Shown: positions 6,738-41,133 of the stretch, piece by piece
Numbering within the stretch: position 1 is the stretch's first letter
How the letters are laid out: each line of letters begins with the position of its first letter
Assembly (NCBI GenBank): GCA_026390585.1
Contig: JAPLFP010000221.1
Coordinates: forward strand, 1-49,693
Source of the DNA: Ignavibacteriales bacterium
Lineage (GTDB): Bacteria > Bacteroidota > Ignavibacteria > UBA10030
DNA length: 49,693 nucleotides
Reading direction: 5' to 3'
Translations under genes and position numbers: made by a program
The notes under the pieces: generated by a model
What the model was told of the DNA's origin: nothing
Database searches by the model: none
The model's input: the letters and a program-made list of their open reading frames with translations, nothing else

Positions 6738-6768
6738 TTGCGTTTCACTTTGAACTGCAGTAGCTTTG
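6738..6768 (+). promoter_or_regulatory. Bacteroidota-type promoter of the kinase operon
   Basis: TTG (6738-6740), exactly 20 bases, then TAGCTTTG (6761-6768), a full match to TAnnTTTG. It lies 74 bases before the leader-peptide start, just after the M16 terminator, where a new transcription unit must begin. Confidence 0.55.
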
Positions 6769-16223: not shown

Positions 16224-16254
16224 TTGCCTTTCAATCTTTCCTGCCGTAGTTTTA
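16224..16254 (+). promoter_or_regulatory. Bacteroidota-type promoter of the GH31 gene
   Basis: TTG (16224-16226), exactly 20 bases, then TAGTTTTA (16247-16254), matching TAnnTTTG at all but the last base. It lies 67 bases before the start codon. The surrounding words CCTGTTGCCTTTC and TAGTTTT recur in the split promoter at 23057-23151. Confidence 0.5.
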
Positions 16255-21100: not shown

Positions 21101-21781
21101 ATGAGATACAGACACTTCTTCGTTCTTGTTTTGGCTCTTCTCGTTGGATTGACATCAGTACTCACAGCGCAGTCGGTCGCAACACAATCGTCAGGTACTA
21201 CACGAGGGGGAGTGATGCTCTTCGGCGGACTCGCATTGCCGGCCGGAGAATTCGGCAAGACCGATGGGGACAATGCGGGTTTTGCGAAGAAGGGATTTTT
21301 CGGCGGTGCAGAGATCATGTTCTCCGTGGCCCCGAGCATCGGTATCGTATTGGATGGAAGGTACATCATCAACAAGTATGACGACTCTCAGATTGCAGCG
21401 TTGGTCGGAAGTTATCCTGGCATCTCCTACACCGTGGGTTCCTACACGGGCATCCTCCCGATGGGGGGAATCAGGCTCTATACAACAGGTCCGATCGGTC
21501 TCTTCGTGGACGGTCAGGCCGGCTATATGTTTGCCAAATCGCCTGAGGTGACGGTGACAGGGCTTGGCGTGAATGAAAAGGTCGACGCCGTGTCAGGAAA
21601 AGGGCTTGCGTACGGTGGATCAGCAGGTATCGACATAGGCAACACACTCATCGTCGGGGCCAGCTATATCATCTGCAAACCGAAATTTGAAATGACAGTG
21701 TCTGCGGGCAGCCAGCAGACAACGCAGACGGTTGAGCAGCCAATGAACATGATCCAGATTTTTGCCGGCATTCGCTTCTGA
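21101..21781 (+). CDS. Outer-membrane beta-barrel protein
   Basis: 226 residues with a signal peptide (MRYRHFFVLVLALLVGLTSVLTAQ). The rest alternates polar and aromatic/hydrophobic residues in strands separated by Gly-rich turns (GGVMLFGGLALPAGEF, GFFGGAEIMFS, GIVLDGRYIIN, MGGIRLYTTG, GLFVDGQAGYMFA, GGSAGIDIG) and ends in aromatic FAGIRF. This is the pattern of an 8-stranded OmpA/OmpW-like barrel. Start is the ATG behind AAAGGAAA. Specific function is unknown. An IS630 element has inserted 43 bases after its stop, apparently between the gene and its terminator. Confidence 0.8.
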   Translation: MRYRHFFVLVLALLVGLTSVLTAQSVATQSSGTTRGGVMLFGGLALPAGEFGKTDGDNAGFAKKGFFGGAEIMFSVAPSIGIVLDGRYIINKYDDSQIAALVGSYPGISYTVGSYTGILPMGGIRLYTTGPIGLFVDGQAGYMFAKSPEVTVTGLGVNEKVDAVSGKGLAYGGSAGIDIGNTLIVGASYIICKPKFEMTVSAGSQQTTQTVEQPMNMIQIFAGIRF

Positions 21782-21904
21782 TGATGTCCGTACCAAGGGC
21801 GCCGGCTGCTAATATCTTTCGCTAGTGCCAGTTCTAAAAAATAAGGTTGTACTTGGTTAACGCGTTTAGCACATTAGGGGAGCCACAAAACAGGAGGCTC
21901 GACA

Positions 21905-22402
21905 ATGTGCTTGTATGTTCGTTCTTTGAAACTGAAGGAAGGCCGAAAGATCCAAGCCATCCTACGCCGTGGAAAGAATCGCACGGCAATACGCCGCGCT
22001 CAGGTAATCCTAATGTCTGCGCAAGAGATGCGGGTGAGGGAAATAGCTCTGCAGACCCTTTTGCATCCTGAATATGTGCGCCGACTCATACGACGGTTCG
22101 ACATCGAAGGGCTCCGGTTGTTTGAAGAACGCCCTGGCCGCGGTCGTCCCGGCGAGTTCTCCGACGAGATCAAGGCTGAGATCGCTGAAATAGCTCAGTG
22201 CCCCCCGTCGTTGTTGCGTCAACCGTATAGCCGTTGGTCTTTGGACAAACTTCAGGTCTATCTGATCAAGACAAAGATTGTCTCAAAGATCAGCATTGAG
22301 ACGTTACGAACAATCCTCAAAGAACAACGCGTCAGCCACCAGCGGACCAAGACGTGGAAAGAGTCAAATGATCCGGACTTTGAAGGTAAAAAAAACGACT
22401 GA
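21905..22402 (+). CDS. IS630 transposase, 5' frame (OrfA, helix-turn-helix part)
   Basis: 165 residues starting behind AGGAGG. It carries the N-terminal DNA-binding helices of IS630 transposases (RRAQVILMSAQEMRVREIA...YVRRLIRRFDIEGL, then the RPGRGRPGEF linker and PYSRWSLDKLQVYL). The frame ends with TGA just after an A8 tract (22388-22395). In the zero frame the tract reads A-AAA-AAC, a canonical -1 slippery heptamer. Slippage joins this frame to the catalytic part downstream without losing residues. Confidence 0.85.
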   Translation: MCLYVRSLKLKEGRKIQAILRRGKNRTAIRRAQVILMSAQEMRVREIALQTLLHPEYVRRLIRRFDIEGLRLFEERPGRGRPGEFSDEIKAEIAEIAQCPPSLLRQPYSRWSLDKLQVYLIKTKIVSKISIETLRTILKEQRVSHQRTKTWKESNDPDFEGKKND

Positions 22403-22950
22403 CCCGGCTTTACCGGCACCGTCCCAAGGGATCGCGTGTCGTTTGCTTTGACGAATTTGGCCCGTTCGAACTGCGTCCGCAGTATGGAATGCACTGGGCA
22501 GGGCGCAGACATCCACAGCGTTTGCCTGCAACCTACACCCGATATCACGGGGTTAGGCATTTACTGGCGTTCTTTGACGTCTACCGTGACCAGTTCTGGG
22601 GATACTTCTTTCAGCGCAAGCGCTGGCAAGAGACTCTTCGTGCGTTCAAGCGCTTACGAAAACGTTATCCCCGACGAATACGAATCTATCTCATCCTGGA
22701 CAACTTTTCACCGCACAAGCGTCCAGAAATACGACGCTGGGCACGAGAAAACAATGTTTGCCTGGTTTGGACGCCGACCAATGCTTCTTGGCTCAATCGG
22801 ATCGAATGCCAGTTCACTGAAATCAGGAAGTTCAGCATCGACAACACTTTTCACAAAACGCATCGTCAGCTTCAACGCGCTGTACGTAGGTTCATCCGTT
22901 ATCGCAACAAGCGCCAGCGTAACAAGGCAAAAAAGAAAACACAACATTAA
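22390..22950 (+). CDS. IS630 transposase, 3' frame (catalytic DDE part, reached by -1 frameshift)
   Basis: Read after slipping back one base on the A8 tract, this frame continues KKRLTRLYRHRPKGSR and contains the full DD(35)E centre: VVCFDEFGP (first Asp), IYLILDNFSPHK (second Asp) and SWLNRIECQFTEI (Glu). The joined protein is about 350 residues, normal for the family. An internal ATG at 22489 lies after the first catalytic Asp and would give an inactive protein, so the frameshift product is the expected enzyme. Confidence 0.85.
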   Translation, partial: KKRLTRLYRHRPKGSRVVCFDEFGPFELRPQYGMHWAGRRHPQRLPATYTRYHGVRHLLAFFDVYRDQFWGYFFQRKRWQETLRAFKRLRKRYPRRIRIYLILDNFSPHKRPEIRRWARENNVCLVWTPTNASWLNRIECQFTEIRKFSIDNTFHKTHRQLQRAVRRFIRYRNKRQRNKAKKKTQH

Positions 22951-22997
22951 TTTATAGACCCGGTACTAGCTACTGCATTCTGATTGTTCAAACTCGG

Positions 22998-23030
22998 ATC
23001 CTCGCCTTCTTCTGGGCGAGGATTCTTGTC
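22998..23030 (+). terminator. Terminator separated from the barrel gene by the IS630 insertion
   Basis: ATCCTCGCC (22998-23006) pairs with GGCGAGGAT (23015-23023), followed by TCTTGTC. With the IS removed it would lie about 75 bases after the barrel stop codon, so it is probably that gene's original terminator. Confidence 0.65.
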
Positions 23031-23056
23031 TTGGGCGCATTTGTTCCCCCCTCCTG

Positions 23057-23151
23057 TTGCCTTTCTAGTGCCACTTCTAGTAAGAGATCTTGTAGTATTG
23101 CCATGCCTTCGGTATATTCAGAAAGGCACTAGCTACTCTGTAGTAGTTTTC
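23057..23151 (+). promoter_or_regulatory. Promoter of the purine cluster split by a MITE
   Basis: TTG (23057-23059) lies left of the MITE and TAGTTTTC (23144-23151) lies right. Removing the 62-bp MITE and one TA leaves exactly 20 bases between them, giving TTG-N20-TAGTTTTC, almost the same as the GH31 promoter. The present spacing is 84 bases and cannot work. Inside the MITE, TTG (23090-23092) plus 20 bases plus TATATTCA (23113-23120) may serve as a weaker replacement. Confidence 0.5.
23068..23129. mobile_element. 62-bp MITE-like derivative of the IS630 element
   Basis: It starts GTGCCACTTCTAG, closely matching the left end of the neighbouring IS630 (GTGCCAGTTCTAA), and ends with the inverted GGCAC. 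It is flanked by TA on both sides (23066-23067 and 23130-23131). It has no coding capacity and could be moved in trans by the intact transposase 100 bases upstream. Confidence 0.7.
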
Positions 23152-23259
23152 GACTGCGGACTCTCTGGCTTGATCCTACGCATTGGCGTACGTAAGCCTG
23201 ATTCTTGGCCCCATCTTTCTGAGGGAAGTCTGAACGGCACACATCCTCTATCGAAACGA

Positions 23260-24654
23260 ATGTCTCTCCTGGTCAAAAATGGGACCGTTGTAACTCCGGA
23301 CAAGATCGCGATTGCAGACGTCTACGTCGAGAACGATATCATCACTGCGATCGGGGAAAGTCTGACGCAACAATCGGAGACGACCATCGATGCGTCGGGG
23401 AACTACGTTATTCCCGGCGGCATCGATGTCCACACACATCTGGAAGCTCCGGTGGGGGGCACAACGTCCAGCGACGACTTTGAAACGGGAACTCGCGCCG
23501 CGGCGTTTGGAGGAACCACCTGTATCATTGATTTTGCCACCCAGTCGAGGGGACAATCGCTCCTGGAAGCATACCGGGTCTGGCGACAGAAGGCTGCCAA
23601 AGCAACAATCGATTATGGACTTCACATGATTGTTGTCGATGTTGCGGAAGGGCGGATAGAGGAACTTGATGACCTCGTCAGCGAAGGGATCACAAGTCTA
23701 AAGCTCTTTACGGCGTATCCCGGTGTTCTCATGGTGGATGATGCCGCGATTCTGCAGATTATGGTTCGTGCCCGGAATAAGGGAGCGCTCATAGCGGTGC
23801 ATGCAGAAAACGGTGGGGCGATTGAATACCTCGTTCAGAAAGCCCGGACCGAGGGGCGCACTGCACCGATCGAACATGCATTGACTCGTCCTGCAATTGC
23901 AGAAGCTGAAGCGGTGCATCGGGTGATTGCGCTTGCGCGCATAGCGGATATTCCCCTCTACATTGTCCACGTCACGTCGGCAGAGGCACTCGAAGAGATT
24001 ACTCGTGCACGCAAAAAGGGAATTCCGATCTTCGGTGAAACCTGCCCGCAGTACCTGTTCCTCACCATGGCAGAGCTGCGGCGACCGAATTTTGAAGGGG
24101 CGAAGTTCGTATTGACTCCTCCGTTGCGCGACCTTGCTGATCAGGAAGCTCTCTGGAAAGGCCTCCGGGATGGCGACCTGCAAGTCGTTTCAACTGATCA
24201 CTGCCCGTTTTTCTTCAAGACCCAAAAGCGCGCCGGCCTCGACGATTTCACCAAGATTCCCAATGGCGGTCCCGGTATTGAACATCGGCTGCAACTCCTG
24301 TATCATTTTGGAGTGAATCAGGAAAGGATTTCCGTGCGCAGATGGGTGGAACTGGTCGCCGCGAATCCAGCGAGACTCTTTGGTCTCTATCCAAAAAAGG
24401 GAGCGCTTCAGGTCGGAAGTGATGCCGACATAGTCATCTGGAACCCCAACCAGAAGCACACGATTTCTGCGGCGTCGCATCATATGAACGTCGACTACTC
24501 GATGTACGAAGGCATCACTGTTCAAGGAAATGCGGAGACGGTCATTTCCCGGGGCGAGATCATTGTGAATCAAAATACGTGGTCTGCGAAGCCGGGGCGC
24601 GGCAAATATCTCAAGCGGTCTCCGTTCAACGGCACTTTGTCAACTGTACGCTGA
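23260..24654 (+). CDS. hyuA: D-hydantoinase / dihydropyrimidinase family amidohydrolase
   Basis: 464 residues. A zinc-dependent cyclic-amide hydrolase that opens the ring of dihydropyrimidines, hydantoins or related purine-derived rings. Metal ligands are visible: GIDVHTHLE (H58, H60), the carbamylated lysine in TSLKLFTAYP (K148), AVHAENG, YIVHVTSAEAL and STDHCPFF (Asp). The ATG at 23260 is chosen because it begins MSLLVKNGTVVTPD, the normal family start; the open frame extends 92 codons upstream through the terminator and the MITE and is spurious there. It is the first gene of the purine cluster. In the E. coli yge-ygf cluster the homologue is HyuA. Confidence 0.9.
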   Translation: MSLLVKNGTVVTPDKIAIADVYVENDIITAIGESLTQQSETTIDASGNYVIPGGIDVHTHLEAPVGGTTSSDDFETGTRAAAFGGTTCIIDFATQSRGQSLLEAYRVWRQKAAKATIDYGLHMIVVDVAEGRIEELDDLVSEGITSLKLFTAYPGVLMVDDAAILQIMVRARNKGALIAVHAENGGAIEYLVQKARTEGRTAPIEHALTRPAIAEAEAVHRVIALARIADIPLYIVHVTSAEALEEITRARKKGIPIFGETCPQYLFLTMAELRRPNFEGAKFVLTPPLRDLADQEALWKGLRDGDLQVVSTDHCPFFFKTQKRAGLDDFTKIPNGGPGIEHRLQLLYHFGVNQERISVRRWVELVAANPARLFGLYPKKGALQVGSDADIVIWNPNQKHTISAASHHMNVDYSMYEGITVQGNAETVISRGEIIVNQNTWSAKPGRGKYLKRSPFNGTLSTVR

Positions 24655-24666
24655 ACAGAACTCATC

Positions 24667-26103
24667 ATGAGCAACTCCATTGCATTCGTCCTTGATGGAA
24701 ACGCTGTCGAGATCGGATTCGATCGTTCATCTCGACTGGCGCCGACGACTACCGTGCTGAATTATTTGCGCGGTTTGCCGCAACACCGGGGAGTGAAGGA
24801 AGGTTGTGCGGAAGGTGATTGCGGAGCCTGCACTGTTGTTGTCGGTGAATTGCGAGCAGACAAGTCCATCAATTACAGAGCGGTCGATTCCTGCTTGCTC
24901 TTTCTCCCAATGATTCACGGAAAACAGTTGATCACTGTTGAAAACCTGAAGGGCTCATCGGGAAATCTTCATCCTGTCCAGCAAGCAATGGTGGACTTTC
25001 ACGGCAGTCAGTGTGGCTTTTGCACGCCCGGAATTGTGATGACTCTGTTTGCCCTCTATAAAGGAGGCACCAAGCCATCGCAAGACGAGATCGCTGAAGC
25101 CCTTGCAGGCAACCTCTGCCGATGTACGGGCTATGAGCCGATTTTGAAGGCGGCTGTTGCCGCATGTAATGGGGGAGGACGGGATCAGTTTTCAGTTGAT
25201 GAGGCGCGCATCGTAGGATTGCTGAAATCCATCTCTCCCGACGGGATCTCGCTTTCGACAGATCTCCAGCGCTATGATCAACCTGCGACGTTGGATGAAT
25301 GTCTTGTTCTCGTGGAGAAGTTTCCTGACGCACTTATCATCAACGGTGCAACAGATGTGGCGCTCAGGGTCACGAAGAAGTTTGAGATTCTCCGGCACAT
25401 CATTGACTGTTCACGAATCGCAGAGCTCAGGACGGTTTCGAGCGACAGTCACGCTCTGACGATCGGGGCGGGTGTCCGCATCAGCGAGGTAATGAAGCTT
25501 GTAAAGAATGATTTCCCCGGGCTTTACCAAATGTTGACGGTGTTCGCCGCCCAACAGATACGGAATGTGGCAACGCTCGGCGGGAATATCGGAACTGCTT
25601 CTCCGATCGGTGACACGCTTCCGGTTCTTATGGCATATGGCGCAGAGATTATTCTTCAGAGTCGTCGTGGGATGAGGCGTGTCAAGGCAGCCTCGTTCGT
25701 GAAAGGGTACAGAACGACGGATCGTCAACCGGATGAGTTGATCATGGCCGTCGCACTGCCGCGACCCTCGGCGGTGTCACGCATCCGGACGTACAAGGTG
25801 TCCAAGCGTCGCGATCTTGATATCGCGACTGTGAGTGCTGCATTCAGAGTGGACCTGGATGAAAAAGGAATTGTGAGCGACATTACTCTCGCGTATGGAG
25901 GGATGGCAGAATGCACAAAACGGTCGATCTCTGCCGAAGCCTTCCTCAAAGGAAAAGCATGGAATCGTCAGAGCGTTGAAGGAGCGCAACTCCTGATCGA
26001 CATGGATTTCAGTCCGATTTCTGATGTGCGCGGAAGTGCAGAGTTTCGGAAAATCGCAGCGAGGAATTTGCTTCTGAAATTCTGGAGTGAAACAACGGAA
26101 TAA
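24667..26103 (+). CDS. xdhA: Xanthine dehydrogenase small subunit (2x[2Fe-2S] + FAD)
   Basis: 478 residues. The N-terminal plant-type [2Fe-2S] domain has C47, C52, C55 and C76 (GCAEGDCGACTVV...VDSC). The second [2Fe-2S] helical domain has C116, C119, C151 and C153 (CGFCTPG...NLCRCTGY). The remainder is the FAD-binding domain (NGATDVALRV near 225; NVATLGGNIGTASPIGD near 300) and its C-terminal CO-dehydrogenase-flavoprotein-like domain. The protein carries electrons from the molybdenum site to FAD and NAD. It partners the molybdopterin subunit encoded next, though that one is rearranged. All eight cluster cysteines are present. Confidence 0.93.
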   Translation: MSNSIAFVLDGNAVEIGFDRSSRLAPTTTVLNYLRGLPQHRGVKEGCAEGDCGACTVVVGELRADKSINYRAVDSCLLFLPMIHGKQLITVENLKGSSGNLHPVQQAMVDFHGSQCGFCTPGIVMTLFALYKGGTKPSQDEIAEALAGNLCRCTGYEPILKAAVAACNGGGRDQFSVDEARIVGLLKSISPDGISLSTDLQRYDQPATLDECLVLVEKFPDALIINGATDVALRVTKKFEILRHIIDCSRIAELRTVSSDSHALTIGAGVRISEVMKLVKNDFPGLYQMLTVFAAQQIRNVATLGGNIGTASPIGDTLPVLMAYGAEIILQSRRGMRRVKAASFVKGYRTTDRQPDELIMAVALPRPSAVSRIRTYKVSKRRDLDIATVSAAFRVDLDEKGIVSDITLAYGGMAECTKRSISAEAFLKGKAWNRQSVEGAQLLIDMDFSPISDVRGSAEFRKIAARNLLLKFWSETTE

Positions 26104-26200
26104 ATTCGAAACTCAAAACTGCATTTGCACTTCTCTTCGGATTTCGGTGTTAGAGGTTCGTATTTGTTTCGTGTTTCGCATTTCGAATTTCCATTGAGGT
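26104..26200. repeat. AT-rich degenerate repeat tract between xdhA and xdhB
   Basis: The gap between xdhA and xdhB is made of words such as ATTCGAAACTC, TTCGGATTTCGG, TTTGTTTCGTGTTTCGCATTTCGAATTT. It matches in style the tracts at 2090, 34551 and 45085. It separates two genes that in other genomes are close neighbours. Confidence 0.6.
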
Positions 26201-26227
26201 TGGTCTGAGCTGTTAAGGAAGTGCACT

Positions 26228-29200
26228 ATGCACCAACAGATACCACACGAAAGCGCAGCGCTCCACGTCACTGGTGAAGCGCTCTATATTGACGATCTCC
26301 CGTCCAGCCCGAGTCTTTTGATAGGGCGAGTCGTCTACAGCCCTCACGCTCATGCCCGCATCGTGTCGTATGACCTGACGAAGGCGATGCAGGCTCCTGG
26401 AGTCGCTGCAGTGCTATGCGCAAAGAATATCCCGGGCCACAACCAGATGGGGCCGGTCGTCAAGGATGAGCCCTGCCTTGCCTCTGAGGAAGTAACATTT
26501 GTTGGTCAAGCGGTGTTTCTGATCGCGGCGAAGACGGACACTCAGTGCCGCGCCGCTGAAAAGCTGATTGACGTAACGTATCAAGCACTCAGACCGATTC
26601 TCACCATCGATGACGCGATTGCAGCGAACAGTCTCCTTGGGCCGGCACGAACAATGCAGCGTGGAGATGCGGACTCAGCCCTTCGCTCGGCTGGGCACAG
26701 AATAGAGGGAGAGCTGAGAACGGGTGCAGCGGAACACTGGTATCTTGAATCGCAGGCTTCGTTGTCTGTCCCGGGAGAAGGCACCGAAATGACGTTGTAT
26801 TGTGGCTCGCAGCACCCCTCAGAGACACAAACTCTGGTTGCCGAAGTCCTCGGTGTGAAGAAAAAGGACGTGGTTGTAGAAGTTCGCCGAATCGGTGGTG
26901 CCTTTGGAGGCAAAGAGACTCAGGGAAATCATGTTGCATGCTGGAGTGCGCTCCTCGCCCGTGCGACCGGTTGCCCCGTCAAAGTCAGGCTCTTCCGCGA
27001 CGACGACATGATCATGACTGGGAAACGACACCGCTTTCTGACGCGATACAAAGCCGGGTTTGATGATGAGGGAATACTACGGGCCGTCAAGATCGAATTG
27101 AACAGCGATGCCGGTGCAGCGACAGATCTCTCCTTTGCGATCATGGAGCGGGCGATGTTCCATTGCGACAATGCCTACTTTGTACCACACATGCATGTCC
27201 TTGCTCGCGTTTGGAAAACCAACCTCCCATCGAATACTGCTTTCCGCGGATTCGGCGGCCCTCAGGGAATGGCGGCGATGGAAGCGATCATCGACCGTAT
27301 GGCACGCATCCTCCATAAGGATGCAGCAGAAATCCGGCTCAAGAATTTCTATGGCCTTGACTCGAACAATACGACGCACTATGGCCAGGTCGTGGAGAAC
27401 AACCGGCTGCATCGAATGTTCGATGAATTGATGCAGTCATCGGAGTACGCCTCACGACGCAAAGCTGTCCGGGAGTACAACGCTGCGAATGAATTCACCA
27501 AGAAAGGCCTTGCCCTGACGCCTGTCAAGTTTGGGATTTCGTTCACGACGACATTTCTGAACCAGGCCGGTGCTCTCGTCAACATCTACAATGACGGCAC
27601 TGTTCTCGTCAACCACGGCGGGATTGAAATGGGGCAGGGGCTTCACACGAAGATGCAGCAGATAGCGGCTGCGGAACTCGGCATCAGTATTGATCGCGTA
27701 CGCGTGAATGCAACAAACACTTCCAAAGTTCCCAATACATCGGCTACTGCTGCCTCATCTGGAACGGACATGAATGGTGCGGCGGTGAAAAATGCGATCG
27801 ACACGCTGAAAGGTCGAATTGCCGATTGCATCGCTGGCATGTTCAATGAAAAAGATTCTTCGGTGCAGACATCAAAGGATGATATTCGCTTTGAGCGCGA
27901 CACGATCTTCGATGGCAAGCACCCGGAGCGATCCATTGGTTTCGCGGAAGCAATGCCGCAGATGGTTTTGCGCCGGGTGAGTCTGAGCTCGACTGGATAC
28001 TATCGTACGCCTGGCATTGGATGGGACAGAGACAAAGGAGTGGGAACACCATTTCGCTATTACGCGTTTGGCATGGCTGTCTCAGAAGTGCTTGTCGATA
28101 CTCTCACTGGCGCCACAACGCTACTTCGGACAGACATCCTCCACGACGCCGGAGATTCAATCAATCCTGCCATCGACATTGGGCAGATCGAAGGTGGCTA
28201 CATCCAGGGAGTCGGCTGGTGCACCACAGAAGAAATAAAATGGGACGATGCCGGAAATCTGCTAACGCATTCCCCTGATACCTACAAGATTCCAACAGCC
28301 ACCGATATTGCATCATTAGTTACAGGACTTACCTGTCTTGTCTGCAACTCGAAGTATGAAAATGGGAATCTCCACACCTGTCCGAAGTGTGGAGTCCAGG
28401 GTATTCTGGACGTTCAGTACGACTACGATGCGATCGGAGCGAAGCTCTCCCGTGCCGTCCTTGCAGATCGTCCGTTCAGTCATTGGCGCTACCGCGAGCT
28501 TCTTCCGATTTCTGCAGAAGCAGTCCTCCCACATCTAGCTGTGGGAGGAACTCCTCTCTACGACGTTCCGCGTCTTGCCGCAGCTGTCGGAATTCACAAG
28601 CTGTTTTTAAAGGACGAAGGGAGAAATCCCACAAGTTCTTTCAAGGACCGGGCAAGTTCTGTTGGTGTCGTGAAAGCACAGGAGTTCGGCTTCAATACCA
28701 TTGCTTGCGCATCGACGGGAAATGCAGCATCGTCCCTGGCCGGACTGTCGGCTGCTGTTGGACTGCGGAGTGTTATCTTCGTGCCCCAGCGCGCGCCGGA
28801 ACCGAAAGTGACGCAGCTTCTGATTTTTGGCGCAACGGTTGTTCGTGTGAAGGGGACTTACGAAAACGCGTTCGAGCTCTGTCGGGAAGCGTGCAGGAAG
28901 TTCGGCTGGTATGATCGAAACAGCGGTACGAATCCCTTCCTCGTTGAAGGAAAGAAAACTGCGGGGCTCGAGATTGCTGAACAATTTGGAGCGACGATTC
29001 CGGAATGGGTTGTGGTGTCTGTAGGCGACGGATGCACGATCGGAGGGATCGGCAAAGGGCTTCAGGAAATGAAGAAACTGGGATTCATCGATCGCGTGCC
29101 GAGACTGCTCGGCGTCCAGGCTGAAGGTGCGCGACCCATCCTCGATTCTTTTCTGAGCGGCAAGGATCTCATCCCTTCAGACACGAACACCATTGCTGAC

Positions 29201-29548
29201 AGCATCGCTGTCGGTACTCCCCGCAACTGGCGACGGGCCATTCAGCAGATCAAAGCTTCGCGTGGAGAGATGATTGCTGTGACGGATGGTGAGATACTGG
29301 AAGCGATGCGTCTGACAGCGCGTCTCGGTGGAGTCTTCGGCGAACCCGCAGGTGTGGCTGGTGTTGCCGGTCTGAAGAAGGCGATCGCTCAGGGGGTAGT
29401 GAAATCCGGTGAATCAGCTGTTGTTGTCATCACCGGAAATGGACTGAAGGATGTGCAGTCCGCAAAGCAGGCTGTGGGGCAAGCGCTTGATATTGAACCC
29501 GATTTTCAGGTTCTTGAAAAACATTTGTTGGAACTTTCACTCATTTGA
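26228..29548 (+). CDS. Xanthine dehydrogenase molybdopterin subunit (C-truncated) fused to threonine synthase
   Basis: 1106 residues in one frame. Residues 1 to about 694 are XdhB-type molybdenum hydroxylase: GEALYIDDLP, RIGGAFGGKE (E230) and AFRGFGGPQG (R340), the two purine-binding positions of true xanthine dehydrogenases, MGQGLHTKMQQ, and HSPDTYKIPT. Just there, about 80 residues before the expected end, it changes to threonine synthase (about 695-1106): zinc-ribbon-like TCLVCNSKY...CPKCG, TPLYDVPRLA, SSFKDRAS with PLP lysine K806, ACASTGNAASSLAG, and GDGCTIGGIGKG. The lost XdhB tail normally carries the GEPP-type catalytic glutamate, so the hydroxylase half is probably inactive while the synthase half looks complete. 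A deletion that joined two adjacent genes is the simplest explanation; an assembly error is possible. Confidence 0.88.
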   Translation: MHQQIPHESAALHVTGEALYIDDLPSSPSLLIGRVVYSPHAHARIVSYDLTKAMQAPGVAAVLCAKNIPGHNQMGPVVKDEPCLASEEVTFVGQAVFLIAAKTDTQCRAAEKLIDVTYQALRPILTIDDAIAANSLLGPARTMQRGDADSALRSAGHRIEGELRTGAAEHWYLESQASLSVPGEGTEMTLYCGSQHPSETQTLVAEVLGVKKKDVVVEVRRIGGAFGGKETQGNHVACWSALLARATGCPVKVRLFRDDDMIMTGKRHRFLTRYKAGFDDEGILRAVKIELNSDAGAATDLSFAIMERAMFHCDNAYFVPHMHVLARVWKTNLPSNTAFRGFGGPQGMAAMEAIIDRMARILHKDAAEIRLKNFYGLDSNNTTHYGQVVENNRLHRMFDELMQSSEYASRRKAVREYNAANEFTKKGLALTPVKFGISFTTTFLNQAGALVNIYNDGTVLVNHGGIEMGQGLHTKMQQIAAAELGISIDRVRVNATNTSKVPNTSATAASSGTDMNGAAVKNAIDTLKGRIADCIAGMFNEKDSSVQTSKDDIRFERDTIFDGKHPERSIGFAEAMPQMVLRRVSLSSTGYYRTPGIGWDRDKGVGTPFRYYAFGMAVSEVLVDTLTGATTLLRTDILHDAGDSINPAIDIGQIEGGYIQGVGWCTTEEIKWDDAGNLLTHSPDTYKIPTATDIASLVTGLTCLVCNSKYENGNLHTCPKCGVQGILDVQYDYDAIGAKLSRAVLADRPFSHWRYRELLPISAEAVLPHLAVGGTPLYDVPRLAAAVGIHKLFLKDEGRNPTSSFKDRASSVGVVKAQEFGFNTIACASTGNAASSLAGLSAAVGLRSVIFVPQRAPEPKVTQLLIFGATVVRVKGTYENAFELCREACRKFGWYDRNSGTNPFLVEGKKTAGLEIAEQFGATIPEWVVVSVGDGCTIGGIGKGLQEMKKLGFIDRVPRLLGVQAEGARPILDSFLSGKDLIPSDTNTIADSIAVGTPRNWRRAIQQIKASRGEMIAVTDGEILEAMRLTARLGGVFGEPAGVAGVAGLKKAIAQGVVKSGESAVVVITGNGLKDVQSAKQAVGQALDIEPDFQVLEKHLLELSLI

Positions 29549-29559
29549 ATTCAACACAC

Positions 29560-30861
29560 GTGAGTCTTCTCCTCAAAAACACTAAAGCGATGACGCTGGC
29601 TCCGCCGGCAATCGAGGAATGTGATATCCGCATTGATGATGGCGGAATTGTCGATCGCGCCCCGCACCTGAGACCGAGGCGGGATGAGGAGATTGTTGAT
29701 CTGCAGTACAAGATTGTCATGCCGGGCTTTGTGTGTTCGCACACGCATCTGTATTCAGCCTTGTCACGCGGCATGCCCGCACCGTCGTCTCCACCAAGAA
29801 ACTTCGTTGAAATACTGCAAAAAGTCTGGTGGAAACTGGACAAAGCCTTGGACGAAGAGGCGATCTATTATAGTGCTCTCGTGGGTGCGATTGAATCGGT
29901 GAAGTTTGGCACAACCACATTGATTGATCATCATGCGTCTCCGAATTTCATCACAGGCTCACTTGATTTGATCAAACACGCGCTCTGTCAGGTTGGGACG
30001 CGAGGGATACTCTGCTATGAAACGACCGACCGCGGCGGGAAGAAGCGACGCAACCTTGGTCTCGAAGAGAATGAGCGGTTTGTGATGGAGAATGCCAGCA
30101 ACGCCCATTTCCGTGGCACGATCGGTGCGCATGCGCAGTTTACGCTGGGCGATGATTCTCTTGTCTGGCTTGGCGAGTTGGCAGCTATGTACGACTGCGG
30201 GGTGCACATTCACGTGGCAGAAGACAAAGCCGATGTGCTGAACGCGCAGAAGGAACACAAGCAGGATATCATTGAGCGGCTCGCGAAATTCGGGATCCTC
30301 AGGAAAAAATCTCTCATCGTGCATGGCGTTCACCTCTCGAAGAAACAACTGGCAACCATTGAGAAATCCGGCGCGTGGATGGTTCATAATCCCAGATCAA
30401 ATATGAACAACGCGGTTGGTCACGCCCCATTGAATTGGTTCGGTGAACACGCGGCATTAGGAACGGATGGGTTTCCCGCCGATATGTTCGAAGAATCGAA
30501 ATTCGGGTATTTCCGAAACGCTGAGTCAGAATCGCCCGTTGGATTCTCCAGAATTCCCGAAATGTTGCACAACGGTCAGCGTCTGGTTTCCGAGTTCTTT
30601 GGCCATCCGTTCGGAACACTGCAAAAAGGATGTCCCGCCGATCTTGTGGTGCTCGGGTATTGTCCCCCAACGCCCCTGACGTCCCGTAATCTCCTCGGTC
30701 ACTTCCTGTTTGGCATGAATTCGTCGATGGTTGAGCACGTGATCGTGAATGGGAACAGGATTGTTTGGAACAAACAATTGATCGGCATAGACGAAAACGA
30801 TGTAATGCAGAAAGCGGCAAAAGTCTCGAAAAAGCTCTGGAGTCGGATGCATGGCAGATAA
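29560..30861 (+). CDS. ssnA: SsnA-type metal-dependent aminohydrolase (guanine/hydroxypyrimidine deaminase-like)
   Basis: About 433 residues of the amidohydrolase superfamily. Visible metal and catalytic motifs: VCSHTHLYSALSRGM (HxH), HIHVAEDKAD, IVHGVHLSKKQ and LGTDGFPADM (Asp). These match SsnA, the putative aminohydrolase of the E. coli purine cluster, which removes an amino group from a purine-like ring or a ring-opened intermediate. GTG at 29560 (VSLLLKNTKAM) is chosen by comparison with related N-termini; TTG at 29545, overlapping the previous stop, is possible. The 3' end overlaps the next gene by 11 bases, so translation is probably coupled. Confidence 0.85.
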   Translation: MSLLLKNTKAMTLAPPAIEECDIRIDDGGIVDRAPHLRPRRDEEIVDLQYKIVMPGFVCSHTHLYSALSRGMPAPSSPPRNFVEILQKVWWKLDKALDEEAIYYSALVGAIESVKFGTTTLIDHHASPNFITGSLDLIKHALCQVGTRGILCYETTDRGGKKRRNLGLEENERFVMENASNAHFRGTIGAHAQFTLGDDSLVWLGELAAMYDCGVHIHVAEDKADVLNAQKEHKQDIIERLAKFGILRKKSLIVHGVHLSKKQLATIEKSGAWMVHNPRSNMNNAVGHAPLNWFGEHAALGTDGFPADMFEESKFGYFRNAESESPVGFSRIPEMLHNGQRLVSEFFGHPFGTLQKGCPADLVVLGYCPPTPLTSRNLLGHFLFGMNSSMVEHVIVNGNRIVWNKQLIGIDENDVMQKAAKVSKKLWSRMHGR

Positions 30862-33214
30862 GCACAAAATCATCGGCAAGTCCGAACGCCGCGTTGATGC
30901 CTGGGGAAAGGTAACCGGGAGGGCGAAGTTCGCTGAGGACTATACCGTTGGACATCAATTGTGGGGAATGGTGCTTCGCGCGAAGTTTCCGCATGCCAAA
31001 ATCCTCTCCGTTGATATCTCGCAGGCCGCAAGCCTTCCCGGTGTGGAGGCTGTTCTGACAGCGAAGGATATCCCTGGCAGCAAGACATTCGGAATCGTGT
31101 TAAAAAACCAGGCGATCCTGGCTGAAGATCGCGTTCGCTATCTCGGTGATGGTGTCGCGCTTGTTGCAGCAGCATCGAAGGAAATCGCTGAACGGGCAAT
31201 CTCCCTCATCGTTGTTGAGTACGAACCGCTCCCGGTGGTATCCGATCCGGAAGAGGCGATGAAGCCCGGGGCACTGGTCATTCATGACGAAAAGAATGAA
31301 TTTGTCCACCACAAGGTCCGCAAAGGAGATATTGAGAAAGGATTCGCGGAAGCGGACTTCGTCATTGAACGGAGATTCAAGACGCAGTTCATCGAGCATT
31401 CCTACATCGAGCCTGAATGTGTGGTTGCTGAGCTGGCAGAGCAAGGGGGCGTGAAGATCACAGGCTCGGTGCAGAACCTTTTCTCCAGCCGCCGATCGGT
31501 CGCAGATGCGTTGAAGATCTCTTTGAATCGTGTGCAAATCATACAGGCGACACTCGGTGGCTCGTTCGGCGGCAAAGATGAAGTGATGACATCGATGTGC
31601 TGCCGGGCTGCTCTTCTCGCGATGAAAACCGGCAAGCCTGTCAAGATGGTGAACACGCGCGAAGAATCAATGCTGGAGAGCTACAAACGACATCCCTACG
31701 TGATGTACTACAAATGGGGAGCCAGGAAGGACGGCACAATCACAGCGATGGAAATCCGCTGTATTGCTGACGGCGGCGCATATTCCTCAATGAGTCCCTT
31801 CGTAACATGGCGGTCGGTGGTCCAGGCGACCGGTCCCTACTATTGTGAAAACGTCAAGACCGATGTCTATGCGGCCTATACGAACAACAACTATACCGGC
31901 GCGATGAGGGGATTCGGTTCTCCGCAAGTCAACTTTGCCATCGAATCGATGATGGACGAACTTGCGGAACACGTCGGTATGACGCCGCTGGAAATCCGTC
32001 TGAAGAACGGCTTCGAGAACTACGCCGTCACTGCAACAGGGCAAAAGCTGAATCATACGGTGAGCCTGAAACAAGTATTGAGGGAGGCAGCACAGGCGAT
32101 TGACTTTGACAGGAAGTGGAGAGAGTACCGTGGCGTGAAAGAAGGGGAGAAGAAGCGAGGTGTTGGCATCGCCTGCAGTTATCGGGGAGTCTCTCTCGGT
32201 GCGGAAGGCACTGATGCTGCCGAGACCATCGTCTCGGTTCAAACTGATGGAAGCGTCATTGTCTCCTCCGGTGTGACGGATATGGGGCAGGGAGCGCAAA
32301 CGCAAATGTCACAGATCGCGGCCGAAGTGCTGGGCATTTCTATGGATCGGATCCAGTTCCTGAATACCAACACGAGCCGTGTCGCCGACTCCGGACCGAC
32401 GGTTGCCTCACGCGGAACAATCATGGGAGGATCCGCCGCCAAGAATGCTGCAGAGAAAGTGCGGGCAACGTTGCTCGAAGTTGGTGCTGAGATGACAGGC
32501 GTTGAAATAATCGCTCTCGATCTGGCAGACAACTATCTGATTAGGAAGAATTCCATGGAGCGGCTCGCCTCGTTCGGTGAGCTCACAACCGCGTGCTTCA
32601 ACAAAGGCAAGCCGATGATCGGTCTTGGGTGGCACAAGTCGCCACCGACTTCATGGCATGAAGAAGAAGGTACAGGGGAAGCGTATTTCACATTTGTCTA
32701 TGGTGCAAACGCAGCCGAAGTCGAGGTGGATACCGGCACTGGCAAAGTGGATGTGGTCGACTTTGTCTCCGTCCATGATGTTGGCAAAGCCATCAATCGT
32801 GGAATGGTCATTGGCCAGATGTGCGGAGGTGTGGCGATGGGGCTCGGCTATGGGCTGCTGGAGGATTTTGAAATCGAAGATGCCATTCCGAAACAATTGA
32901 ACTTCGACGAGTACCTGATTCCCACTTCGATGGATGTTCCTCGCATTAAGACGATCATCGTTGAGAACGAAGATCCTGCAGGACCGTTCGGGGCGAAGTC
33001 GGTCGGTGAACCTACGAATGAACTCGCAGCGCCGGCAATTGTCAACGCCATTTTCAATGCAACGGGAAAACGGATCTACGAGATCCCCGCGACCCTTGAG
33101 CGTGTGTTGCTTGGACATAAGCTTTCGCGGTCCGGGAAACGCGGTTCGGAACAAAAGAATTCGCTCGATTCGATGATGGTGGAGTCGTGCAAAAACCGGG
33201 GGGAGAAAGGATGA
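30851..33214 (+). CDS. Molybdenum hydroxylase large subunit (XdhD/XDH-like)
   Basis: 787 residues, full length. Family motifs: RVDAWGKVTGRAKFAED, GDGVALVAA, LGGSFGGKDE (D243), AMRGFGSPQVNF, MGQGAQTQMSQIA, and the C-terminal AKSVGEPTNE with E720 as the catalytic glutamate. Position 243 is Asp where xanthine dehydrogenases have Glu, which may change the substrate accepted. With the FAD subunit and the [2Fe-2S] subunit that follow, it forms a complete three-subunit hydroxylase. In E. coli the corresponding enzyme of the purine cluster is XdhD. Stop TGA overlaps the ATG of the next gene. Confidence 0.9.
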   Translation: MADKHKIIGKSERRVDAWGKVTGRAKFAEDYTVGHQLWGMVLRAKFPHAKILSVDISQAASLPGVEAVLTAKDIPGSKTFGIVLKNQAILAEDRVRYLGDGVALVAAASKEIAERAISLIVVEYEPLPVVSDPEEAMKPGALVIHDEKNEFVHHKVRKGDIEKGFAEADFVIERRFKTQFIEHSYIEPECVVAELAEQGGVKITGSVQNLFSSRRSVADALKISLNRVQIIQATLGGSFGGKDEVMTSMCCRAALLAMKTGKPVKMVNTREESMLESYKRHPYVMYYKWGARKDGTITAMEIRCIADGGAYSSMSPFVTWRSVVQATGPYYCENVKTDVYAAYTNNNYTGAMRGFGSPQVNFAIESMMDELAEHVGMTPLEIRLKNGFENYAVTATGQKLNHTVSLKQVLREAAQAIDFDRKWREYRGVKEGEKKRGVGIACSYRGVSLGAEGTDAAETIVSVQTDGSVIVSSGVTDMGQGAQTQMSQIAAEVLGISMDRIQFLNTNTSRVADSGPTVASRGTIMGGSAAKNAAEKVRATLLEVGAEMTGVEIIALDLADNYLIRKNSMERLASFGELTTACFNKGKPMIGLGWHKSPPTSWHEEEGTGEAYFTFVYGANAAEVEVDTGTGKVDVVDFVSVHDVGKAINRGMVIGQMCGGVAMGLGYGLLEDFEIEDAIPKQLNFDEYLIPTSMDVPRIKTIIVENEDPAGPFGAKSVGEPTNELAAPAIVNAIFNATGKRIYEIPATLERVLLGHKLSRSGKRGSEQKNSLDSMMVESCKNRGEKG

Positions 33215-34065
33215 AGCCGTTCGAATATCATTCCCCGCGTTCCCTGCCGGAGGCATGCGCGTTACTCGCGGAAATCGGCGCTGATGCCAGGATTCTGGCC
33301 GGGGGAACTGATGTGCTTGTGGAGATGCGTAAGCCAGGTTCATCCTCCTCGAAAGCCGTCGTCGACATCACCCGGATCTCATCACTCAAAGGCATAGAAG
33401 AATCTGGGGATGAGATCGTCATTCGACCGCTCACGACTCATGCAGAAATTCTCCGTTCGAAGATTGTGGAACAGTATGCCCCGTTGCTGAAGTCTGCTGT
33501 TGCGGGTATTGGGTCGCCCCAGATTCGCAATCGAGGTACCGTCGGTGGAAATATCATGAATGCGGCAGCGTGCGCGGATACTGTCCCTCCTCTCATCGCT
33601 CTGAATGCGAAGATTAAGCTCCTTTCATCAAGAGGCGATCGAACAGTGGAGTTGTCCGAATTCTTCCTCAAGCCATATGCGACCGTTGCACAACGGGATG
33701 AGATCCTCGTTGAGATTCGGTTTCCGAAACTCCCCAGCAGCGCACGAAGCTCGTTCATAAAGCTCGGACGGCGAAATGCGCTGTCGATCGCCCGGCTGAG
33801 CGTAGCGGCAATCATGGTAAAAACAGAAGCCGGAGTGGTCAATGATGCGCGCATCGTGACCGGTGCCGCATTTCCAAAGTGGCAGAGAGTCCCCGAAGCG
33901 GAACATGTTCTCCTTGGACAAAAACCATCGCGCACATTGTTTGATGAAGCAGGAAATAAAGTCTCGGAGGCCTTAATATCATTCACAGGCAGGCGCTGGT
34001 CAACAGAATACAAGGAGCCAGTCATTGCTGTGCTAGTACGCCGGGCACTTGAAGCATGTAAGTAG
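33211..34065 (+). CDS. ygfM: Molybdenum hydroxylase FAD-binding subunit
   Basis: 284 residues. FAD-binding motifs: ILAGGTDVLVEMRK near 26 and QIRNRGTVGGNIMNAAACAD near 103, then the C-terminal flavoprotein domain (KLGRRNALSIARLSVAAIM). It passes electrons from the Fe-S subunit to the final acceptor. The ATG at 33211 follows GGGAGAAAGG and overlaps the stop of the large subunit (ATGA); an upstream in-frame ATG at 33187 lies inside that gene and is not preferred. YgfM is the counterpart in the E. coli cluster. Confidence 0.9.
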   Translation: MKPFEYHSPRSLPEACALLAEIGADARILAGGTDVLVEMRKPGSSSSKAVVDITRISSLKGIEESGDEIVIRPLTTHAEILRSKIVEQYAPLLKSAVAGIGSPQIRNRGTVGGNIMNAAACADTVPPLIALNAKIKLLSSRGDRTVELSEFFLKPYATVAQRDEILVEIRFPKLPSSARSSFIKLGRRNALSIARLSVAAIMVKTEAGVVNDARIVTGAAFPKWQRVPEAEHVLLGQKPSRTLFDEAGNKVSEALISFTGRRWSTEYKEPVIAVLVRRALEACK

Positions 34066-34073
34066 AAAACGGG

Positions 34074-34565
34074 ATGCAATTCATGAAAAGTGTTTTCATC
34101 AGGACAACGATCAACGGCAAAACGTACGAGCTTGATGTTCGTCCGAACATGACGCTCCTGGACTTCTTGCGAGACGAGCTGGGATTGACCGGCACGAAGC
34201 GAGGATGTGAAGTGGGCGAATGTGGAGCATGCACTGTTTTGATGAATGGACAAGCCGTGAATTCCTGCCTCATCCTTGTCCCCCAGATTGATGGCCAGGA
34301 GATCCTCACCGTCGAGGGGCTCGCAGAAGGGGAGAAGCTTCATCCGCTTCAGGAGTCGTTTCTGGACCATGATGCTGTTCACTGTGGTTTTTGCACTCCC
34401 GGCATGTTGATGAGCGCAAAAGACTTACTCGATCATACCCCAAGTCCTTCAGAGGAGGAAACCCGTGCAGCAATTTCCGGCAACCTCTGTCGATGCAGCG
34501 GCTATCAGCAGATCGTTGATGCGATTCGGGAGACGGAAGACGTGAGAAGTCAAAAGTCAAAATGA
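34074..34565 (+). CDS. Molybdenum hydroxylase [2Fe-2S] subunit
   Basis: 163 residues. It carries two [2Fe-2S] clusters with the usual cysteines: GCEVGECGACTVL...NSC and CGFCTPG...NLCRCSGY. It completes the three-subunit molybdenum hydroxylase with the two genes before it. The ATG at 34074 or the one three codons later may be used. The last codons (RSQKSK) are already drawn from the AT-rich repeat tract that follows, so the natural C-terminus may have been replaced by repeat sequence. Confidence 0.9.
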   Translation: MQFMKSVFIRTTINGKTYELDVRPNMTLLDFLRDELGLTGTKRGCEVGECGACTVLMNGQAVNSCLILVPQIDGQEILTVEGLAEGEKLHPLQESFLDHDAVHCGFCTPGMLMSAKDLLDHTPSPSEEETRAAISGNLCRCSGYQQIVDAIRETEDVRSQKSK

Positions 34566-34655
34566 AAAATGAAAAAGGAAAACGTAGGACGACGACCGCA
34601 AATCCCAAATCGGAAATCAAAAATCGCCAATCGCCAATTGCAAATTGACAATCAC
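34551..34655. repeat. Repeat tract running into the end of the [2Fe-2S] gene
   Basis: Words such as AAGTCAAAA, AAATCCCAAATCGG, AAATCAAAAATCGCC, AATCGCCAATTGC run from the last codons of the [2Fe-2S] gene to the leader of the preT-like gene. It would be read as an N-terminal extension of the next protein if an upstream ATG were used. Confidence 0.6.
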
Positions 34656-34664
34656 ACTCCCCTC

Positions 34665-35915
34665 ATGAATTCCCGACAAGCCAAGATTGAATCAGAGCGT
34701 TGTCTGCAGTGTTTCGACGCTCCCTGCATGACGGCATGCCCGACGCATATCGATGTCCCGAAATTCATCTCGATGATCAGAACGAACAACGTCATCGGGG
34801 CCGCAGAAGTGGTCAAGGTCTCCAATGCGTTGGCGAACACGTGCGGCAAGATTTGCCCCGAAGAGGTCTTTTGTCAATCGGTGTGCACCCGAGGCAAACA
34901 AGACTCACCGATTCAGATTCGCGAATTGCATTTCTTCGCAACACAGCGGGAAGTGAAGAGAGGTTTTTCGGCGACAAGGAGATTTCCTGCGTCGGACAAG
35001 AAAATCGCGGTTATCGGTTCTGGTCCGGCCGGGCTTGGTTGTGCATTCGAGCTGACGAAACTCGGACATCAAGTCGACGTCTATGATGCTCACAAGCCGG
35101 GAGGAGTGCCCCGAAAGAGCATTCCGTCATTTCGGCTCGCAGGTCGTGAGTTGGAGTCGGATACAAAATTCCTCTCCACGTTCTTTAAAGTGAAGAAACA
35201 GGTCGTCGACTCAAGAACATTTCAACGAATCCAACGTGAGCATGACGCTACATTTCTGGCAGTTGGTCTTGGCCGGGATCGAATGCTCGGAGTCGCTGGT
35301 GAGAAGTTGAAGGGCGTACTTCCTGTTCTACAATTTCTCGAGAAGGCCAAGATTGCTCCATCGAAGATGAAGGTAGGCAAGAAGGTTGTTATCGTGGGTG
35401 GCGGCAACGTCTCGCTGGATGCGGCGGCGACGGCAAAGCGACTCGGCGCCGAAAGCGTGGTGCTCATTTATCGCCGGAGTGAAAAAGAGATGCGCGTGTG
35501 GAAAGGGGAACTTGCCGAAGCGAGAAGGCAGGGGGTGGAGATTCGGTTCCTCATCAATCCGGTCAGCGTCATAGGAAAAAGCAAGGTTGCTGGGATTAAG
35601 TGCAGGCGAACGCGATTAAGCAAACAGAAAGACAAGACCGGACGACTGATCCCTGTTGAAATAAAGGGCTCTGACTTCATACTCGACGCAGATACCGTCG
35701 TTATCGCCATCGGCCAAACGATTGAAGCAAACTGGCTGGGAGACCTCGACCGAAAGGGCGGAGGGTATGTAAAAGTGCGCGAGGACTTTCAGACTTCTGT
35801 CCCTGGAGTTTTTGCCGGAGGGGATATGATTGCCGGAGAAGGCACGATTGTGCAGTCCGTGTCGCAGGGTAAGTATGCCGCACGAGCCATCCACGAATAC
35901 TTGTCAGCGAAGTGA
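34665..35915 (+). CDS. preT: PreT-like FAD/NAD(P) oxidoreductase (glutamate-synthase small-subunit type)
   Basis: 416 residues. The N-terminal double [4Fe-4S] domain of this family is present (RCLQCFDAPCMTACPTHIDVPKF, TCGKICPEEVFCQSVC). It is followed by the FAD-binding GSGPAGLGCAFEL near 122, the NAD(P)-binding VGGGNVSLDAAATAKRLG near 245, and the C-terminal FAD loop VFAGGDMIAGEGTIVQS. It is the electron-input subunit of dihydropyrimidine dehydrogenase-type reductases. The ATG at 34665 (MNSRQAKIESERC) is chosen; the longer frame only adds translated repeat. Gene order with PreA indicates one enzyme that reduces or oxidises a pyrimidine- or purine-type ring. E. coli uses the related YgfK in its cluster. 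Confidence 0.88.
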   Translation: MNSRQAKIESERCLQCFDAPCMTACPTHIDVPKFISMIRTNNVIGAAEVVKVSNALANTCGKICPEEVFCQSVCTRGKQDSPIQIRELHFFATQREVKRGFSATRRFPASDKKIAVIGSGPAGLGCAFELTKLGHQVDVYDAHKPGGVPRKSIPSFRLAGRELESDTKFLSTFFKVKKQVVDSRTFQRIQREHDATFLAVGLGRDRMLGVAGEKLKGVLPVLQFLEKAKIAPSKMKVGKKVVIVGGGNVSLDAAATAKRLGAESVVLIYRRSEKEMRVWKGELAEARRQGVEIRFLINPVSVIGKSKVAGIKCRRTRLSKQKDKTGRLIPVEIKGSDFILDADTVVIAIGQTIEANWLGDLDRKGGGYVKVREDFQTSVPGVFAGGDMIAGEGTIVQSVSQGKYAARAIHEYLSAK

Positions 35916-35925
35916 AGGGTGTCTT

Positions 35926-37158
35926 ATGGAATATCAGAAGCTCAAGGAAATAGAAATCTATCCGCTGCGCGATTTGTCGTACGACTTTCTGGGAATCCAT
36001 TTCGAGAATCCCTTCATCCTTGCAGCAGCGCCTTCGACGGACAATCTTGACATGGTGCGCCGGGCATTCGAGATGGGTTGGGCCGGAGCGATCTTGAAAA
36101 CGACGTCTGTGGAAGGGAACCGCGTGGATCTGGCGTATCCGATGATGTCGACGTTCGACCACGAAGGGCGAAAACTGTTCGGCATGGGGAACATCGATCT
36201 GATCTCCGAGCGTCACATCGACAAGGTTGAGCATGACGTCAAGGCTCTTAAAAGAGAGTTTCCGGAAAAAATGGTTGCTGCCAGCATCATGGCCGGGCGG
36301 AAAGAAGATTGGCAGTCCCTCGTCGAACGGCTTGAAAAGGCTGGTGCAGATCTGATTGAATGCAGCTTCTCCTGTCCTCAGGGAAATATCGGCGAAGATC
36401 CGGGAAAAATGCTTGCGCAAAGCCTGACTGCCACCGAACTCACAGCGCGATGGGTCAAAGAGGCCACGAAGAAGATTCCGGTCTCCATCAAGATCACTCC
36501 TCATGTCACCGATATCGTCGAGGTGGCGAGAGCTGTGAAGAGGAGCGGGTGCGATGCACTCACGGCATCGAACTCAATCCAGGCTTTGATGGGCATCGAT
36601 ATTCGTTCCTTCTCACCGTATCCAAGCCTGGGCGGGAAGTCTACATACAGCGGCATGACCGGTCCGGCGATCAAGCCGATCACCCTTCGGACGATAGCAG
36701 AAATTGCCCGCAATGTAGATATCCCGATTCTTGGCACGGGCGGAGCATCGACGTGGAGCGATGCCGTTGAGTTCATGGCGGTTGGAGCGGGTGTCGTTGA
36801 ATTTTGCACGGTCGTCATGCACTATGGCTTCCGTGTGATCGACGACTTGAAGAGCGGAATGTCGCACTATCTCGACGAGATGGGCTTTCCCTCGCCTGCA
36901 GTTCTGGTGGGCAAAGCGCTTCCCAATATCGTGATGCATGATGATCTGCCCCGGAAGAAAATGCGGAGCCATATCAACGAGAAGCTCTGTATCGGTTGCG
37001 ACCTGTGTTATGTCGCCTGCAGAGACGGCGGACATAGCGCGATCGATCAGCAGTCGAGTCGGGTGCCGCACGTTGAATGGGAACGCTGTGTTGGCTGTGG
37101 TCTCTGTCAGCACGTGTGCCCGGTCGAGAATTGTGTCGAAATGCATATCATGGCCTAA
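35926..37158 (+). CDS. preA: PreA-like dihydropyrimidine dehydrogenase catalytic subunit
   Basis: 411 residues. A FMN-binding dihydroorotate-dehydrogenase-like barrel (LSYDFLGIHFENPFILAAAPSTDN, LIECSFSCPQGN, SIKITPHVTDI, TASNSIQALMGID, ILGTGGASTWSDAVEFMAVGAGVV) is followed by a C-terminal ferredoxin domain with two [4Fe-4S] motifs (CIGCDLCYVAC and CVGCGLCQHVC). It reduces the C5-C6 double bond of pyrimidines or a similar bond in a purine intermediate, using electrons delivered by PreT. The ATG at 35926 lies 10 bases after the preT stop. Its product would be a substrate for the hydantoinase at the start of the cluster. Confidence 0.9.
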   Translation: MEYQKLKEIEIYPLRDLSYDFLGIHFENPFILAAAPSTDNLDMVRRAFEMGWAGAILKTTSVEGNRVDLAYPMMSTFDHEGRKLFGMGNIDLISERHIDKVEHDVKALKREFPEKMVAASIMAGRKEDWQSLVERLEKAGADLIECSFSCPQGNIGEDPGKMLAQSLTATELTARWVKEATKKIPVSIKITPHVTDIVEVARAVKRSGCDALTASNSIQALMGIDIRSFSPYPSLGGKSTYSGMTGPAIKPITLRTIAEIARNVDIPILGTGGASTWSDAVEFMAVGAGVVEFCTVVMHYGFRVIDDLKSGMSHYLDEMGFPSPAVLVGKALPNIVMHDDLPRKKMRSHINEKLCIGCDLCYVACRDGGHSAIDQQSSRVPHVEWERCVGCGLCQHVCPVENCVEMHIMA

Positions 37159-37194
37159 AGAATCCCTCCAGAAAGATCTGACTACGGGAAAAAG

Positions 37195-38382: not shown

Positions 38383-38455
38383 CATGGATGTGACGGATGA
38401 TGAATCCGTGACAATCCGTGCTTTTTCCGTGTAATCCGTGGTTAATCCACCAGGA
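38383..38455. repeat. ATCCGTG-type intergenic repeat tract
   Basis: GACGGATGATGAATCCGTGAC, AATCCGTGC, TTTTTCCGTGTAATCCGTGG, TTAATCCACC: a tract of imperfect AATCCGTG words ending just before the PLP-enzyme leader. It is a different family from the TTTCGAATTT tracts. Confidence 0.55.
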
Positions 38456-38461
38456 AGTAAC

Positions 38462-39913: not shown

Positions 39914-39925
39914 GGAATAAGAGCA

Positions 39926-41131: not shown

Positions 41132-41133
41132 CT

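Follow-up and report, generated by a model that had tools for sequence, protein, structure and literature searches.

The purine/urate gene cluster and its upstream region

The window (the whole stretch of DNA that was analysed, 49,693 nt) is one complete contig (C184) of the 4.7-Mb draft genome of an uncultured Ignavibacteriales bacterium, and its features of interest are collected in Table 1. Thirteen ORFs were counted from 23260 to 42258, all free of stop codons, in agreement with the more than a dozen genes given in a preliminary description of this DNA. NCBIfam models placed the hyuA-type gene (TIGR02033), SsnA, YgeW, YgeY, PreA, XdhA and XdhB above their cut-offs, and PALP was recognised by Pfam. 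The gene set thus comprises SsnA, HyuA, YgeW, YgeY, an XDH-type Mo-hydroxylase, a PALP lyase and a DHO_dh or YgfK reductase, which together mark a reductive purine/urate cluster when compared with the list in the consulted part of PMC12507026. Rfam families were searched for a riboswitch upstream of the cluster, and none matched the window at the gathering threshold. The cluster is collinear in three genomes of the same genus (G003, G005 and G002), with G003 being the closest by cluster protein identity (81–92% for 12 of the 13 ORFs, and 62% for xdhC).

Table 1. Position of the predicted features in the window
Feature	Position	Strand	Remarks
Intact same-class promoter (predicted) upstream of gene with Ser/Thr kinase-like start	6738-6767	+	
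Intact same-class promoter (predicted) upstream of GH31 gene	16224-16253	+	
IS630-family element, 1142 bp, DDE_3 domain	21825-22966	+	Flanked by TA (21823-21824, 22967-22968); ends possibly akin to those of the MITE family
Terminator-like hairpin between upstream gene/IS and promoter	22996-23025	+	Hairpin kept in G003
Upstream (-33) half of split promoter, TTGCCTTTC (CCTGTTGCCTTTC from 23053)	23057-23065	+	Letters identical in G003 empty site and genus promoter class
Left copy of duplicated target TA (target CTAG)	23066-23067	.	Single CTAG in G003
Half-length MITE, 62 bp, GTGCC...GGCAC	23068-23129	+	Belongs to a family of 23 copies
TTG-N20-TATATTCA inside the MITE, previously proposed substitute promoter	23090-23120	+	Judged a chance match
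Right copy of duplicated target TA	23130-23131	.	
Downstream (-7) half of split promoter, TAGTTTTC (TAGTTTTG in G003)	23144-23151	+	
hyuA-type dihydropyrimidinase/hydantoinase, first gene of the cluster	23260-24654	+	TIGR02033 above cut-off
Rest of cluster: xdhA, xdhB (damaged), ssnA, second Mo-hydroxylase set, PreT/PreA-like, ygeW, PALP, ygeY, xdhC	24667-42258	+	

Purifying selection on the cluster is unrelaxed in the lineage of the window, as polarised substitutions (nonsynonymous:synonymous) were 91:568 on its own branch and 131:642 on that of G003 with G005 as outgroup (Fisher p 0.11), and 92:551 versus 98:632 with G002 as outgroup (Fisher p 0.64). One gene is damaged: XdhB (26228–29548) stops at approximately residue 694, with its last 80-odd residues gone, and is fused in frame to the threonine-synthase-like gene that follows it. 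In G003 and G005 XdhB is a protein of its own, with 778 residues and the sequence AEPPLML. The lost segment includes the position of Glu720 of the XdhB of the intact relatives, which aligns with Glu730 of the R. capsulatus XDH, and the latter residue corresponds to the catalytic Glu1261 in mammalian XDH. The role of Glu1261 in mammalian xanthine dehydrogenase is treated in the consulted part of PMC3624778. The xdhB deletion may be an assembly error; if genuine, this separate lesion suggests that the pathway is being lost in the lineage of the window.

A MITE separates the two halves of a promoter-like element

Directly upstream of hyuA, a 62-bp element is located between two copies of TA, at the place where the preliminary description had put it. 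Deletion of the element and one TA exactly restores TTG-N20-TAGTTTTC, as was also claimed there, and the joined site has a TTG and a −7 box approximately 20 nt apart, with the last letter of TAGTTTTC deviating from TAnnTTTG. At present the TTG (23057–23059) and TAGTTTTC are 84 bases apart, the distance previously given, and the former position of the TTG is occupied by GAA from the MITE. The likeness to the upstream region of the GH31 gene that had been noted is likewise seen, with the site there sharing CCTGTTGCCTTTC and TAGTTTT. The target was refined from the TA of the preliminary description to CTAG, with duplication of its central TA.

The preliminary description had proposed a search for empty sites, which was made across species, and the site predicted by joining the two halves is present in G003 as CCTGTTGCCTTTCTAGCTTCTCTGTAGTAGTTTTG, with CTAG at the junction; the promoter-like block upstream of hyuA (C82:29415–29444) reads TTGCCTTTCTAGCTTCTCTGTAGTAGTTTT. 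Over a block of 34 bp the window and G003 are identical at 33 positions, as compared to 28/40 in the upstream flank and 25/40 in the downstream flank. In G002, G004 and G005, where the hyuA upstream region is otherwise different from that of the window, the best site of the class defined below within the fetched stretch was located just upstream of hyuA (scores 19.0, 16.6 and 16.6, with next-best sites at 7.0, 3.3 and 3.7, respectively), and consisted of a weaker match, TTGCCGTTT...TACTTTG. G001 had no match to hyuA. A class site is thus kept upstream of hyuA in each of the four other genus members that have the cluster, as a perfect match in G003 and a weaker one in the remaining three, and is split in the genome of the window only. 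Scanning of the present region 22972–23259 gave a best score of −3.4, versus 33.8 for the joined site; the matrix for these and the hyuA-upstream scores was made from the 12 best sites only, and the scoring was repeated without the GH31 site. The empty site in G003 and the same-class sites in three further relatives support the earlier claim that a former promoter-like element of the purine cluster was split by the MITE. The condition named there as refuting it, an empty site that has no promoter, was looked for across species and did not arise.

A putative promoter class of the genus

The joined site belongs to a putative promoter class which is defined by sequence alone. With one mismatch at most, the six genus genomes together gave 91 matches to TTGCCTTTC-N14-TAGYTTT, versus 1 for a reversed-pattern control, and the own genome had 21 of such sites (control 0). 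Among 20 genomes outside the genus there were 44 sites versus 19 in the control, and a single genome (G015) accounted for 15 of these 44. The 12 reference sites were selected without regard to the 14 spacer positions, and only 206 of 83,480 genomic 14-mers score as well against these as the spacer of the joined site does. Many class sites have a start codon 28–115 nt downstream, TTGCCTTTC is conserved to the same degree as the −7 half across the genus, and several orthologous genes have a class site in both G000 and G003, such as those for GH31, the aromatic amino acid lyase and lactate permease. Among the matches listed, the class sites on contigs C27 and C82 of G003 and C21 and C24 of G002 were grouped, and on a single strand per contig.

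With the primary-sigma promoter of Bacteroidota (TTTG / TAnnTTTG), as presented in the consulted parts of PMC7366714 and PMC9723704, the genus class has the TTG and TAnnTTT(G) in common, and it differs by a longer −33 block (TTGCCTTTC), a fixed spacing of 20 nt and a conserved CTGC.G before the −7 box. A scan of 21700–23400 for Sigma-70-type promoters was negative, and our literature search found neither a promoter motif for Ignavibacteria nor mapped promoters for this lineage.

The MITE family and the neighbouring IS630 element

The element in the window is one of 23 short, non-coding copies (40–214 bp) in the genome, the other 22 being its relatives; the 23 copies were taken from 29 listed matches by leaving out the last six (14–19 bp), two of which lie inside counted copies. 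Full-length members (103–214 bp) consist of two halves, and 5/23 copies, including that of the window, have just one half (40 or 62 bp). With the boundaries as chosen by the script, 16/23 copies have TA on both sides, and in seven one side differs. Besides the copy in the window (1/23), none of the copies cuts a class promoter, with the best other junction scoring −3.8. Some full-length copies (L012, L014, L020, L021 and L022) have an extra mid-element hairpin, for instance TCCCGATCACC...GGTGATCGGGA, which is possibly the insertion of a second small repeat.

An IS630 element is located 101 bp upstream of the MITE, and comparison of its ends with those of a full-length MITE gave 21/32 matching letters on the left and 24/32 on the right, in a test of which the controls were partly made of the IS itself. 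Given this likeness of the full-length ends, the element in the window is probably a half-length RUP-like MITE of the IS630 type with CTAG as target, and it may have been mobilised by this IS630. The half-length copy itself matches the left end of the IS at 20/32 positions and the right end at 10/32, in the GTGCC tip only, and given the absence of a match beyond GTGCC it was either a half already at the time of transposition or became one by losing the right half afterwards. A preference of IS630 for CTAG is reportedly stated in the title of a 1991 paper by Tenzen and Ohtsubo.

The consulted part of PMC2170065 describes insertion of IS630-family elements at TA with duplication. This duplication is shared by the IS630/Tc1-mariner elements described there (ISY100, IS630) and the elements of the window, where the IS630 copy has a DDE_3 transposase, but the MITE, unlike those elements, codes for nothing. 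The RUP element, a pneumococcal MITE of IS630-Spn1 (PMC2229807, in the part consulted), is similar in size to the full-length members (107 versus 103 bp), and both families have TA at the ends; terminal likeness to an IS630 element of the same genome, a further trait of RUP, is probable for the family described here. RUP differs in sequence, host and copy number (108 versus 23 here), and a further difference is the half-length form of the family described here. The Correia/NEMIS elements of Neisseria, as treated in the same source, are likewise small TA-flanked MITEs near genes, with putative promoter sites being discussed; unlike these, the MITE in the window breaks a predicted promoter and has no credible promoter of its own.

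The IS630 transposase is encoded by two frames that overlap at AAAAAAAAC (22380–22402), and a second IS630 copy of the genome (L154) also has two overlapping frames, which suggests that programmed frameshifting may be used by both. The IS630 copy sits between the 3′ end of the upstream gene and the terminator-like hairpin (21781–22996), whereas the hairpin directly follows that gene in G003; a hairpin scan on its own was at chance level (2 found versus 2.0 expected).

Predicted effect on transcription of the cluster

We consider it probable that the insertion is a recent promoter knock-out, in which a half-length IS630-type MITE entered the CTAG separating the −33 box from the −7 box of the putative hyuA promoter, duplicating TA and increasing the distance of the boxes from 20 to 84 bp, such that RNA polymerase could no longer use the promoter and transcription of the whole cluster would be strongly reduced, with the MITE supplying no replacement. 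As the promoter halves and most of the cluster genes are undecayed, the insertion is likely to be recent. The changed expression of the cluster that the preliminary description foresaw is plausible, and strongly reduced transcription is its most likely form because the TTG is 84 bp away, no class site is left, a hairpin lies upstream and the boxes in the MITE are weak. Since a related species still has the intact site, the insertion probably turned the cluster genes down, and read-through from upstream is a less likely rescue because the terminator-like hairpin is located between the IS and the promoter. The severed boxes, the conserved hairpin upstream and the separate xdhB deletion would all be in line with silencing; the unrelaxed purifying selection on the cluster speaks against silencing of long duration.

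This same selection is consistent with residual use of the site, where the −7 half (TAGTTTTC) alone, preceded by MITE letters at the former position of the −33 block, would give useful transcription and the insertion would be nearly neutral. In the consulted part of PMC7366714 a −33 motif was not found for the promoters of Flavobacterium johnsoniae, and the remaining −7 box might thus still work. We regard such residual use as unlikely, since TTGCCTTTC is as conserved in the genus as the −7 half, and is also conserved at hyuA in four relatives, and since the TTG has been replaced by GAA. Rather less likely still, the block could be a conserved regulator site and not a core promoter, with the MITE separating two operator halves. 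Its extra conserved letters (CTGC.GTAG) beyond TTG/TAnnTTTG would fit this, as would the near confinement of the class to the genus of the window and one other among those searched, but the fixed 20-nt spacing and TAnnTTTG-like box agree with the primary sigma consensus of Bacteroidota (PMC7366714 and PMC9723704, as consulted) and many class sites are followed by a start codon at 28–115 nt. Finally, the boxes in the MITE that the preliminary description put forward as a possible substitute promoter are present at the right spacing, and the cluster, being under purifying selection still, may continue to be expressed, but rewiring of the cluster by this route is very improbable and the MITE was rejected as promoter donor, as only 4/6 box letters match, the score is −10.8 against an earlier class matrix that included 10 two-mismatch sites picked by eye, all five sisters in its subfamily lack TTG-N20-TATATTCA as such, and 393 of 20,000 random genomic 76-nt stretches have an equally good site.

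Implications

Returning to the probable recent knock-out of the hyuA promoter, the split promoter and the xdhB deletion are two lesions private to this lineage among genes that are otherwise under selection, and hence fit a recent loss. More tentatively, the genus may have a promoter class to itself that has so far gone undescribed (TTGCCTTTC-N14-TAGYTTTG with conserved CTGC.G), grouped on few contigs and there mostly on one strand, and possibly depending on a dedicated sigma factor or co-regulator. The purine cluster would then have been a member of this class until the MITE removed it, and this event, together with the xdhB deletion, would show a catabolic pathway at the moment of its inactivation in nature. 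A literature search for a bacterial promoter split by a MITE gave none recognisable by title, which does not prove that there is none. Inactivation of a promoter by an IS or MITE is a known type of event, and more may be gained from the promoter class which it brings to light. The probable natural promoter knock-out and its matched empty site would allow for a direct test of a promoter class defined by its letters, and they caution that a purine/urate cluster which looks complete in a metagenome-assembled genome may lack both transcription and the capacity for a working xanthine dehydrogenase.
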